Assembly (NCBI RefSeq): GCF_014268275.3
Contig: NZ_CP077084.1
Coordinates: 6,010,501 to 6,074,500 of the forward strand
Direction of reading: 5' to 3'
Source: Pseudomonas tritici
GTDB lineage: Bacteria; Pseudomonadota; Gammaproteobacteria; Pseudomonadales; Pseudomonadaceae
DNA: 64,000 nucleotides
Shown here: positions 1-21,973 of the stretch, one piece after another
How the letters are laid out: each line of letters begins with the position of its first letter
Position numbering within the stretch: the stretch's first letter is position 1
Program-made: the position numbers and the translations under genes
The notes under the pieces: generated by a model
Databases searched by the model: none
What the model was told of the DNA's origin: nothing
Seen by the model: only the letters and a program-made list of their open reading frames with translations

Positions 1-59
1 GTCCGCAGATGCGTGTGCCAGAGCTTCTCTTTAATGCAGGAGCGTCGTAACCTCAGGGC

Positions 60-20276: not shown

Positions 20277-20608
20277 TGCGTCGATCTTCTGTCGAAAAAT
20301 TCCCCTCGCTATCGGCAGTGGAGCGGGGATCTTTACGATGGGGGAGCAAGTGTTCCGTGGCTCGTCGCAATTCCCAAGACGCCCTCCCCACACTTTGACC
20401 CAGTCAACCCCACTGATAGCTAGCCAACAGGTCCTCCGCATTTCCCGGCAAGGTGGTGCCGCCGTCAATCAAAAGTGGGAGCGGGCTTGCTCGCGAATGC
20501 GGTGGGTCAGTAATAGTTGCATGGACTGACACCCTGCCTTCGCGAGCAAGCCCGCTCCCACATTTGCCCGATGTTGTTTGTTAGATAGCAGTCCCATTAA
20601 GGGACCGA
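20277..20608. other. Gene-free stretch upstream of the unknown membrane protein
   Basis: This stretch holds the upstream region of the membrane-protein gene and one REP pair (listed separately). Possible frames across it are short and atypical in composition; no gene is supported. Confidence 0.6.
20475..20561. repeat. REP inverted pair (GCGGGCTTGCTCGCG subtype)
   Basis: GTGGGAGCGGGCTTGCTCGC is mirrored by GCGAGCAAGCCCGCTCCCAC with about 45 bases between. This is the second REP subtype in the window; it differs from the GCTGGCTTGCC type in the lower stem. Confidence 0.85.
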
Positions 20609-20863
20609 TCAGTCCCTTTTTGGGACCACCTCCGGCGACGGGCTGACTTGCTCCAACGCCCTTTCGACCAACAATTGTCCGAACTCAGCCATTTGCTGAA
20701 TCCCCAGCATGATTGCGCGCTGGGAAGCGTCCAGGTCGAAGGCCAGGTTGCAGGTGAGTGCGTTGAGGGAAGACAGGGTTTCGCTGGCATTGACCAGCAG
20801 GGTTTCGGTGGTTTGGGTAGGGTTTACGGTAAAGAGGGGCGGATTGGGGGTAGGTTTGACCAT
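20609..20863 (-). CDS. Small DUF6124-type protein of unknown function
   Basis: An 84-residue acidic protein, MVKPTPNPPLFTVNPTQTTE, followed by TLLVNASETLSSLNALTCNL and QRAIMLGIQQMAEFGQLLVE. This pattern (proline-rich start, FTV.P motif, NASE.L helix, LGIQQ...QLLVE.AL helix) is what I remember of the Pseudomonas-specific DUF6124 family, whose members are usually somewhat longer and have no known function. AGGAG precedes the ATG by about seven bases. It follows a long structured leader and an intrinsic terminator on the same strand (see those entries), implying tight control at the RNA level. Confidence 0.72.
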   Translation of the reverse strand: MVKPTPNPPLFTVNPTQTTETLLVNASETLSSLNALTCNLAFDLDASQRAIMLGIQQMAEFGQLLVERALEQVSPSPEVVPKRD

Positions 20864-21120
20864 GATGAAGCTCCTAAACAGTAAGTAAGGAGCGCCACCG
20901 TTTCGCTTGCACGCGAATGAGGGTGGCGACCGTGCGCAGGTGTGCAAGACCGGGCCTGTTTAGGACACCCAGCAGGTCCAAAGACCTCCTGCGCGCAGCC
21001 GCCATAAAGCAACGAGCACAAAAAACGCCCGTTGGTTGGCTGGGCGTTTGCACGCCTAAACAGTTTCGTCGGACTTGCACGTCCGTGTCACCGCTTTTTG
21101 CGATGACGGGACGAAGACTA
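20864..21120 (-). promoter_or_regulatory. Structured leader with mutually exclusive pairings over the Shine-Dalgarno
   Basis: Minus-strand features 5' to 3'. A weak promoter is possible (TTGTCG at 21138-21143, 17-base spacer, TAGTCT at 21115-21120). Then: stem-loop at 21080-21113; CTGTTTAGG at 21054-21062; an intrinsic terminator at 21018-21049; stem-loop at 20972-20991; CCTAAACAG at 20956-20964; a two-tier hairpin at 20893-20928; CTGTTTAGG again at 20872-20880, whose end is the AGGAG ribosome site of the gene starting at 20863. The middle 9-mer is exactly complementary to both flanking copies and can pair with only one at a time. One fold hides the ribosome site, the other frees it. No known riboswitch class is recognised. 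Confidence 0.6.
21018..21049 (-). terminator. Intrinsic terminator between immunity-like gene and DUF6124-type gene
   Basis: On the minus strand AAACGCCC (21042-21049) pairs with GGGCGTTT (21023-21030) around an 11-base loop, followed by more T. It may simply end the toxin/immunity transcript, or act as an attenuator within the leader of the downstream gene; it lies between the first and second copies of the switch 9-mers. Confidence 0.75.
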
Positions 21121-21192
21121 GGCGCGCTGACCGCACACGACAAGTTCATGCACTGCCCAAAATCTTGCAGGAAAAATCCGAAGCCAGCCGCT

Positions 21193-21612
21193 CTACAACT
21201 TCATGTCTATGCTCACAGCCCCCAAACCTTCAAGCGGATAGCTGCGGTACTCATAAACCTCACCACGAACAATGAGGTGGATGACGCCATCCTGCCGGAT
21301 CACTTGAACATCCGGCGCGTTGGTTTTCAGAAAAGGATATTTCGAGACCAGCCCGGTAAGTATCTCCTGATCAGTATCCATGTCCTCATGAATGTAATAC
21401 CTGTAGGAAAATCCGACCGTCGCACCACCCTGACCATCCCGAACCCCGTAGATCGACTTGCCGTTACTCAGAGAGTACTTGAGCACCACCTCATCCAACT
21501 CCGGCGCTCCAGGGCTCATCAGCCAACCAAAGCCCAAATAGCCCAGACACACCACCAACAGCCCATTGAGCAGACCTTGCACCATCCACTTAGTACCCTT
21601 GGGCCCTGGCAT
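21193..21612 (-). CDS. Probable immunity protein or membrane-anchored partner of the Ntox44-type toxin
   Basis: A 139-residue protein with one hydrophobic segment at about residues 11-31 (VQGLLNGLLVVCLGYLGFGW), then an acidic periplasmic part. I do not recognise the family. AAGGAGG stands nine bases before the ATG, and the gene overlaps the end of the toxin gene by 23 bases, so the two are coupled. Position, size and coupling are those of an immunity gene, and the anchor would place it in the periplasm. Base composition is lower in G+C than the neighbours: 25 of 60 bases are G or C in 21361-21420. Confidence 0.65.
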   Translation of the reverse strand: MPGPKGTKWMVQGLLNGLLVVCLGYLGFGWLMSPGAPELDEVVLKYSLSNGKSIYGVRDGQGGATVGFSYRYYIHEDMDTDQEILTGLVSKYPFLKTNAPDVQVIRQDGVIHLIVRGEVYEYRSYPLEGLGAVSIDMKL

Positions 21613-21973
21613 ATTCGATACCCTCCTTTATCCAGTGCTGGTCACTATGATCGTCGCCATAAGGCGCATCACCCCACCAGTCTCCAAACTCTACCCGAGA
21701 CGTACCCGCCGCTTTTTGCGCTGCTCCTGCCGCTCGTAACAACACACCCTCGGGAATACCCAACACCGTTCCGGTAACGCCATAGTTGAAGTTACCGAAT
21801 GCCTCGTACTCACGGCTTTTCTGTTTATAGTCCCAAGGACCGCGCCCCCTGACCTGTGAGTAAAACCACGAATAGGTGAACGCCGAGCCCGGCTTAAGAT
21901 GCATCCTACGGTTGTTGGCCAAGGCGATGTTGTCTTGCAGCGAAACGCCCGAAGGCATGGGAGGGACGGCCAT
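21590..21973 (-). CDS. Polymorphic toxin type 44 (Ntox44) domain protein
   Basis: A 127-residue protein consisting almost only of the toxin domain. It starts MAVPPMPSGVSLQDNIALA and contains SWFYSQVRGRGPWDYKQ, EYEAFGNFNYGVTG, LLRAAGAAQKAAGTS and APYGDDHSDQHWIKEGI, the conserved landmarks I recall for Ntox44, a predicted nuclease of interbacterial polymorphic toxins. It lacks any N-terminal delivery module such as PAAR, VgrG, RHS or a two-partner signal, and has no signal peptide, so it would have to be a cargo-type effector or a remnant of a larger toxin. AAGGA precedes the ATG. The gene immediately downstream is the likely immunity gene. Confidence 0.72.
   Translation of the reverse strand: MAVPPMPSGVSLQDNIALANNRRMHLKPGSAFTYSWFYSQVRGRGPWDYKQKSREYEAFGNFNYGVTGTVLGIPEGVLLRAAGAAQKAAGTSRVEFGDWWGDAPYGDDHSDQHWIKEGIEYARAQGY

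Follow-up and report, generated by a model that had tools for sequence, protein, structure and literature searches.

The prototype C4 antisense RNA is a product of RNase P processing, about 77 nt long, that acts in trans. In the immI operon of phage P1 (c4-icd-ant), the a1 and b1 sites upstream of C4 are annotated as "putative" in the P1 record, and the target of C4 is the antirepressor. C4 and the c4-a1b1 element were both already known (PMC2864571).

A second described system is IsrK of Gifsy-1 in Salmonella. According to the available text of PMC4825925, a short, terminated IsrK RNA activates its own read-through mRNA in trans, raising anrP translation about 140-fold and a transcription fusion 8-fold, and a small RNA of ~80 nt, STnc1160, is processed from the IsrK read-through transcript. 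The activation is explained there via orf45 translation, as mutations of the orf45 start reduced it, and co-expression of STnc1160 made the growth arrest more pronounced. The authors liken IsrK to seqA of phage P4 and give their own structural model; the text available to us makes no mention of C4 RNA, C4 antisense or bacteriophage P1. When we scanned Gifsy-1 (L208; NC_010392, 1392-1590, minus strand), isrK overlapped a c4-a1b1 match (48.1 bits, over the cut-off), C4 (69.0 bits) followed directly, and all four a/b pairings were present with 6 to 7 bases. In the Rfam table, isrK has no clan, whereas C4 and c4-a1b1 form clan CL00128. The isrK model also matched the Pseudomonas locus L001 with 56.3 bits (cut-off 50), and L003, L005, L008, L009 and P1 with 32 to 48 bits. 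These results tie isrK to C4 and c4-a1b1, so that the published IsrK experiments bear on the a1b1 site. We infer that STnc1160 corresponds to the C4 RNA, with IsrK as its antagonist. Provided that the published numbering starts at the first base of the isrK match, the orf45 start (A107) lies in the 5' strand of C4, and the pairing positions 159-173 lie inside C4. By analogy, Gifsy-1 gives a logic of anti- and anti-anti-Shine-Dalgarno pairing a worked experimental parallel, although the orf45 dependence and the STnc1160 effect do not fit a plain C4-decoy reading of Gifsy-1.

The locus studied here lies in a 64,000-nucleotide stretch of the Pseudomonas tritici genome (the window) and has the same order of parts as P1: a promoter, a1b1, C4 with a'/b', a2b2 on the ribosome site, and a small ORF. 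In P1 and P7 the target is a phage antirepressor operon, whereas the window target is a DUF6124 gene with no icd or ant seen behind it; RF01695 is not defined by its target gene. Unlike in the phage prototype, C4 occurs here between host genes and in many copies, with 10 loci in the source genome (G000) and 42 in a relative of the same genus (G005). Like Gifsy-1, where a short RNA is ended by a terminator and read-through yields the rest, the window has a1b1 followed directly by C4; however, Gifsy-1 controls a phage antirepressor, and the window leader stays below the isrK model, which is reached by its paralogue L001. Many chromosomal C4-like RNAs per genome, with a variable pairing loop and signs of processing, have been reported as the Group 1 sRNAs of A. 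baumannii, but the accessible part of that report describes neither private a1b1/a2b2 targets nor DUF6124 neighbours (PMC5320573). The CI RNA of phage P4 with seqA and seqC, compared here by description alone, likewise has an upstream and a downstream complementary copy and premature termination, but works by transcription termination (PMC4825925, available text).

Architecture of the window locus

When the whole window was scanned against Rfam 15 with cmscan, a single match exceeded its cut-off, namely C4 antisense RNA (RF01695) at 20919-21009 on the minus strand, on which all parts of the locus described below also lie (61.9 bits; gathering cut-off 45; E 1.4e-9). The match covers the full length of the model (1-87) with its P1-P2-P3 fold. 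The first-pass annotation of this DNA had recognized no known riboswitch class; this statement has to give way to membership in the C4 family, far above the gathering cut-off, and the Rfam scans of the window matched no known ligand-binding class. A permissive scan of 20700-21300 added c4-a1b1 alone (RF03163; 21066-21121; 25 bits, E 4e-4, below the gathering cut-off of 46.7), with nothing further up to E 1, isrK (RF01394) included. At E ≤ 0.05, all 10 C4 loci of the source genome and P1 had a c4-a1b1 match, and 5 of these 11 matches exceeded the cut-off. The neighbours are host genes (malonate decarboxylase alpha subunit and CheW-like genes). Judged from its sequence, the window locus is a C4 antisense RNA module of phage type between host genes. 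No sign of a ligand was seen at the locus. The most fitting view of it is that of an antisense RNA that has two targets, rather than of a ligand-sensing cis switch.

The pairing sites, named here after the P1 record, form two triplets. The 9-mer CTGTTTAGG has exactly three copies in the 64-kb window (0.13 expected; three were reached in 0 of 100 dinucleotide shuffles): b1 at 21055-21063, the P3 loop b' at 20956-20964, where the plus-strand copy reads CCTAAACAG in RNA sense, and b2 at 20873-20881. This agrees with the earlier proposal of a 9-mer that can pair with either of two copies around it; the coordinates of the middle copy were right, and those of both outer copies were one base too low. 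The second triplet, absent from that proposal, consists of a1 (GTGCAAG, 21074-21080, in a hairpin loop), a' (CTTGCAC, 20942-20948, in the P3-P1 linker) and a2 (GTGCAAG, 20906-20912, in the loop of a small hairpin), a' being complementary to a1 and a2. Contiguous Watson-Crick pairs amount to 7 for a'-a2, 10 for b'-b2, 7 for a'-a1 and 9 for b'-b1. The three stem-loops that had been noticed around the 9-mers map to parts of this architecture: 21080-21113 spans the initial hairpin of c4-a1b1, 20972-20991 corresponds to stem P2 of C4, and at 20893-20928 a hairpin joins the 3' strand of C4 (CGCCACC, 20922-20928) to the leader (GGTGGCG, 20893-20899), as a possible competitor of stem P1.

A sigma-70-like promoter (TTGTCG-17-TAGTCT, 21115-21143) is predicted from a motif search and from conservation, with TAGTCT present in 31 of the 32 rows of the orthologue alignment and TTG at spacing 17 in 28 of them. 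The pattern TTGNNN-16..18-TANNNT was found in 66 of 107 C4 leaders, against 3.4 expected from composition shuffles, and the annotated P1c4 promoter of P1 has the same place relative to the C4 module; a strict promoter scan did not call the window promoter. A transcription start downstream of 20964 had been named as evidence against the proposed switch, but this predicted promoter is located upstream of both triplets. Between b1 and C4 we found an intrinsic terminator-like hairpin (AAACGCCC..GGGCGTTT followed by a U tract, 21020-21049, score 22.8), also missing from the first-pass annotation; a separate scan with a loop limit of 8 returned no terminator at the locus. A candidate antiterminator hairpin (GGCGU-GCAA-ACGCC, 21043-21056) uses the 5' arm of the terminator and overlaps the 3' end of b1 by two bases.

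As described earlier, the last 9-mer, b2, runs into AGGAG (20871-20875), the Shine-Dalgarno sequence of the ATG at 20863. Leader folding predicts an additional pairing of AGGAG with GCUCC (20889-20893). The gene (20609-20863) had been assigned to DUF6124, and its product of 84 amino acids indeed matches PF19619 (E 3.6e-29); an AlphaFold2 model (mean pLDDT 84.8) has two helices, at residues 19-41 and 46-73.

Private pairing and cassette exchange

Each C4 of the source genome has complementary sites before and after it and a loop sequence of its own; the loop strings are distinct in 10/10 loci of G000 and 39/40 of G005. For b'-b1, b'-b2, a'-a1 and a'-a2 alike, complementarity was higher within the own locus than with foreign loci, and none of 20000 permutations reached the own value in either genome (10 and 42 loci). 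With a joint criterion (b ≥ 7, a ≥ 6), 8/10 own targets but only 1/90 foreign ones passed in G000, and 26/40 own against 8/1560 foreign ones in G005, where two loci with weak C4 (L112, L113) were left out of this test and of the comparison of the third helix with shuffled targets but kept in the permutation tests. Since own pairs mostly pass and foreign ones rarely do, while 2/10 loci of G000 and 14/40 of G005 fail the strict joint criterion, the code is largely but not perfectly private.

A third helix, between the 3' strand of C4 and a leader element between a2 and b2 (at the window locus, the 20893-20928 hairpin), also far exceeded shuffled targets (20.7 vs 11.7 in G000; 16.3 vs 11.2 at 40 loci of G005). 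Its preference for the own locus was weak, as 114 (G000) and 2586 (G005) of 20000 permutations reached the own value, and with Watson-Crick pairs only (6314 and 6124 of 20000) own was not above foreign. A control on an upstream stretch gave 16014/20000 in G000 and 22/20000 in G005, a value to which near-duplicate loci may contribute. The third helix does not separate the two alleles described below.

The conservation and covariation of the 9-mers in homologous leaders had been set as a test of the earlier proposal, and the triplets are kept and covary. We collected 39 related loci from named Pseudomonas genomes and aligned 31 of them with the window (32 rows), while L157-L164 (30-49% identity) stayed outside the leader alignment. 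C4 is retained in 28 orthologue rows, a count that excludes L138, L153 and L154, where C4 is deleted, and L156, which is not alignable. Two alleles of it occur, with b1, b' and b2 all differing between them: type A (10 rows) has CTGTTTAGG at b1, CCTAAACAG at b' and CTGTTTAGG at b2, with one base changed in b' of L152, and type B (18 rows) has CATGTCGG or CATATCGG at b1, CCGATATG at b' and CATATCGG at b2. With G-U allowed, b' is fully complementary to b2 in 28/28 rows and to b1 in 27/28, the exception being L146, which has lost most of a1b1. The a sites are nearly constant: a' is invariant, a1 has one base changed in L145, and a2 has one base lost in L141.

The allele type is not tied to the flanks. 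L140 (type A) and L142 (type B) share 99.5% identity across the first 190 gene bases but only 68% across the cassettes, and L139 (B) and L147 (A) are identical in the promoter and a1. On a gene tree of 27 rows, made without L155, 8 changes of type are required, of which supported branches force 4, and this is about the number required by shuffled labels (8.2 to 8.5 on average); a tree with the promoter added (26 rows, without L146 and L155) again gave 8 changes, 4 of them forced. Many branches of these trees are weak, the bootstrap of the first tree was unsettled, and recombination within the gene could inflate the number of changes. Nevertheless, whole specificity cassettes appear, from these alignments, to have been swapped in place several times, with at least 4 changes on supported branches.

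Natural C4 deletions are represented by the leaders of L138, L153 and L154, in which C4 is gone (about 120 bases before the start of the gene) whereas a1b1 and a b2-like site are kept. With L146 lacking a1b1 and these three lacking C4, the module can be partly lost. By eye, L206 in G005 resembles these C4-deleted leaders. To see whether the three genes could be targeted in trans, their genomes were searched by pattern for a further C4 carrying CCTAAACAG as b', with no match. Likewise, trans targeting of the six C4-less DUF6124 genes (2/2 in G000 and 4/4 in G005 among those listed) was rejected, as their target sites did not exceed shuffled sequence. The second match of the CCTAAACAG pattern in G000, L195, is outside the 10 C4 matches, has no C4 by eye and was taken as chance.

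The genus-wide array and DUF6124

C4 was detected in 138 of 149 genomes of the genus, taken as Pseudomonas from their protein and locus matches and with the source genome included, at E ≤ 0.001 (137 over the cut-off), and 11 had none; since in many genomes all 27 scored candidates matched, the C4 counts there are lower bounds. Fuller counts with 150 candidates scored in each of 11 genomes gave 42 (39 over the cut-off), 37, 36, 35, 30, 30, 10, 1, 0, 0 and 0, and five named relatives had 36, 33, 22, 20 and 10. Among 184 other genomes of the class, for which the scoring filters were stricter and miss weak matches, 6 had C4, with 1 to 3 copies each.

DUF6124 is present in 7 of the 11 genomes, those with at least 10 C4, and absent from the other four, of which three have no C4 and one has a single copy. 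None of the 184 other genomes of the class had a DUF6124 match, in line with the earlier view of a small gene confined to Pseudomonas. A C4 lies within 500 nt upstream on the same strand of 8/10 DUF6124 matches in G000 and, in G005, of 26 of the 30 listed out of 32; random placement gave means of 0.002 and 0.043 such cases. We also studied 106 Pseudomonas loci, drawn from the best matches of the genus search, from every locus of G000 and G005, and from the best matches in five other genomes. Since this sample is selected, the shares of ORF families and terminators reported here hold for the sample. After removal of 5 loci without a downstream ORF, one that was not recovered and one duplicate, 99 distinct ORFs remained, of which 49 are DUF6124, 11 Bro-N, 9 DUF3077 and 1 QslA, the rest having no Pfam match at E ≤ 0.001; the ORFs were chosen by a script, so some may be wrong, and the QslA ORF starts 133 nt after C4 and is perhaps not its target. 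The two Bro-N proteins that we scanned both match PHROG antirepressor Ant families.

In the literature searched, which includes few subscription papers, we found no account of a Pseudomonas array, of the link to DUF6124 or of cassette swaps. The locus itself joins the known C4 family; the array and the cassette swapping are what appears to be new. As a broader reading, which we find attractive but hold with slightly more doubt than conviction, Pseudomonas may have domesticated a phage immunity circuit as a genus-wide array of up to about 40 insulated modules per genome, each made up of three RNAs (an anti-antisense leader RNA, the C4 antisense RNA and the target mRNA) and guarding a small protein (DUF6124, DUF3077, Bro-N antirepressor-like or others), with cassettes swapped repeatedly by recombination, like the immunity types of phages. 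In that case, the small proteins may have a role in defence against phages or in the control of prophages, and Salmonella IsrK would be the experimentally worked example of an anti-C4 leader. The exact A and B cassette strings were absent from the viral contigs searched, where a Bro-N protein presumed to be under C4 control had no relative either; the window DUF6124 protein matched one phage record and no plasmids. These findings suggest that many Pseudomonas species carry sets of largely insulated antisense RNA modules, useful for studying the evolution of RNA specificity and as ready-made orthogonal parts.

Some further features of the downstream ORFs were seen. At L023, L088 and L105, all on chromosome-sized contigs, a Bro-N ORF begins 47-56 nt after C4. 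A family of ORFs of 52-54 amino acids (MHALNPSKIRAAAHRAMALAAL type) follows C4 at L001, L012-L014, L020, L026, L030, L033, L034, L036 and L037; its L001 member had no Pfam or PHROG match. By eye, the N-terminus K-x-x-P-N/D-P-P (window 20837-20863, minus strand) is common to DUF6124, the Bro-N protein of L105 and the DUF3077-like protein of L095, whose domains are otherwise unlike.

Proposed circuit and alternative explanations

We consider it very probable that the window locus is a C4 circuit with one promoter, in which C4 closes the DUF6124 ribosome site and a1b1 opposes C4. From the promoter, a single transcript would run via a1b1, the terminator-like hairpin and C4 into the DUF6124 gene, and read-through past the hairpin would yield C4 and the mRNA. 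C4, a three-stem RNA presumably processed by RNase P as in the prototype, would pair through its b' loop and a' linker with b2 and a2 on that mRNA, whether in trans or in cis, closing the ribosome site and turning DUF6124 off. Because a1b1 pairs with the same a'/b' as a2b2, it would counteract C4. It could do so as a short, terminated leader RNA of the IsrK kind, or within one transcript by folding onto C4. The terminator would set the amounts of leader, C4 and mRNA, each locus using its own pairing code. The anti/anti-anti-Shine-Dalgarno geometry of the first-pass annotation is thus supported by an architecture like that of P1 and Gifsy-1, and it probably acts between separate RNAs. Several points count against this circuit: the window a1b1 is below the Rfam cut-off, the target is DUF6124 and not icd/ant, and the Shine-Dalgarno sequence is predicted to be hidden in a local hairpin even without C4. 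Further points on this side are the loci that fail the joint pairing criterion, the partly lost modules, the leaders with no terminator, the unchanged terminator prediction for the window locus when b1 is blocked, and the orf45 and STnc1160 findings in Gifsy-1. Cofolding gave no gain for C4 with its target or for the short leader RNA with C4, in a nested scheme that is unable to score loop-loop contacts.

Transcription termination might instead dominate, as in P4, with C4 on a1b1 favouring the terminator and the upstream copy being mainly a termination switch. With P1 counted in, 36 of the 107 leaders have a terminator-like hairpin (score ≥ 14 within 75 nt before C4), compared with 3.2 in composition shuffles; the one at L050 is the a1 hairpin. 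In 28 of these 36 (7.5 expected) a second hairpin competes for the 5' arm of the terminator, and in 22 this second hairpin overlaps b1. After exclusion of 5 leaders with no clear b1, blocking b1 raised the predicted terminator from 0.486 to 0.733 in the remaining 31, whereas blocking other upstream segments gave 0.437; 15 leaders were higher and 3 lower than with the control segments (Wilcoxon p 0.002, which is optimistic since the leaders are related). In P1 the increase was from 0.64 to 0.93, and the 8-fold rise of the long transcript caused by IsrK in trans points the same way (PMC4825925, available text). However, 71/107 leaders have no terminator at the threshold used, and the prediction did not change in Gifsy-1 (0.995 to 0.996) or at the window locus (0.956 with and without the block), where the geometry of an attenuator is nonetheless present; moreover, STnc1160 co-expression worsened the IsrK-mediated arrest, according to the same text. 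We regard dominant attenuation as rather unlikely here, though attenuation may act in addition to the C4 circuit.

Less probable still is the cis switch drawn in the first-pass annotation, where C4 alternates between a1b1 and a2b2 within one molecule and no separate antisense RNA exists. The free minimum-energy fold of the leader (-117.3) already holds a1:a' and b1:b' in cis, against -98.2 with the downstream pairing forced; both pairings are nested and thus possible in one fold, and two alternative cis structures have been described for IsrK (PMC4825925, available text). A long-range minimum-energy fold is weak evidence, though, no ligand or trigger is known, and the C4 of P1 acts as a processed RNA (cited in the accessible part of PMC5320573). 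That the locus is a decayed prophage relic without present function would agree with the phage type of C4 and its loss in 3/32 orthologue rows, but appears very improbable given how widespread C4 is in the genus, the private pairing kept in diverged loci, the b'-b2 pairing intact in every C4-bearing orthologue and the almost invariant -10 hexamer. To a riboswitch for some ligand, which a structured leader with alternative pairings could suggest, we give next to no credence, because C4 and c4-a1b1 cover the leader and the scan of 20700-21300 left no other Rfam match. The C4 circuit turns the unexplained leader of an uncharacterised family into something testable: deletion of C4 is predicted to switch DUF6124 on, and the natural A and B cassettes offer a ready experiment with swapped and restored pairing.

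The flanks of the locus contain two further elements. Just upstream (window 21193-21973, minus strand), an Ntox44-domain ORF has a small ORF overlapping its end, which blastn found at related loci in some rows only and at varying distances, so that this spot looks variable. Downstream, between the DUF6124 gene and the next gene, a long inverted repeat (GTGGGAGCGGGCTTGCTCGCGAAGG type, window 20475-20561) was seen by eye, which we take to be REP-like.
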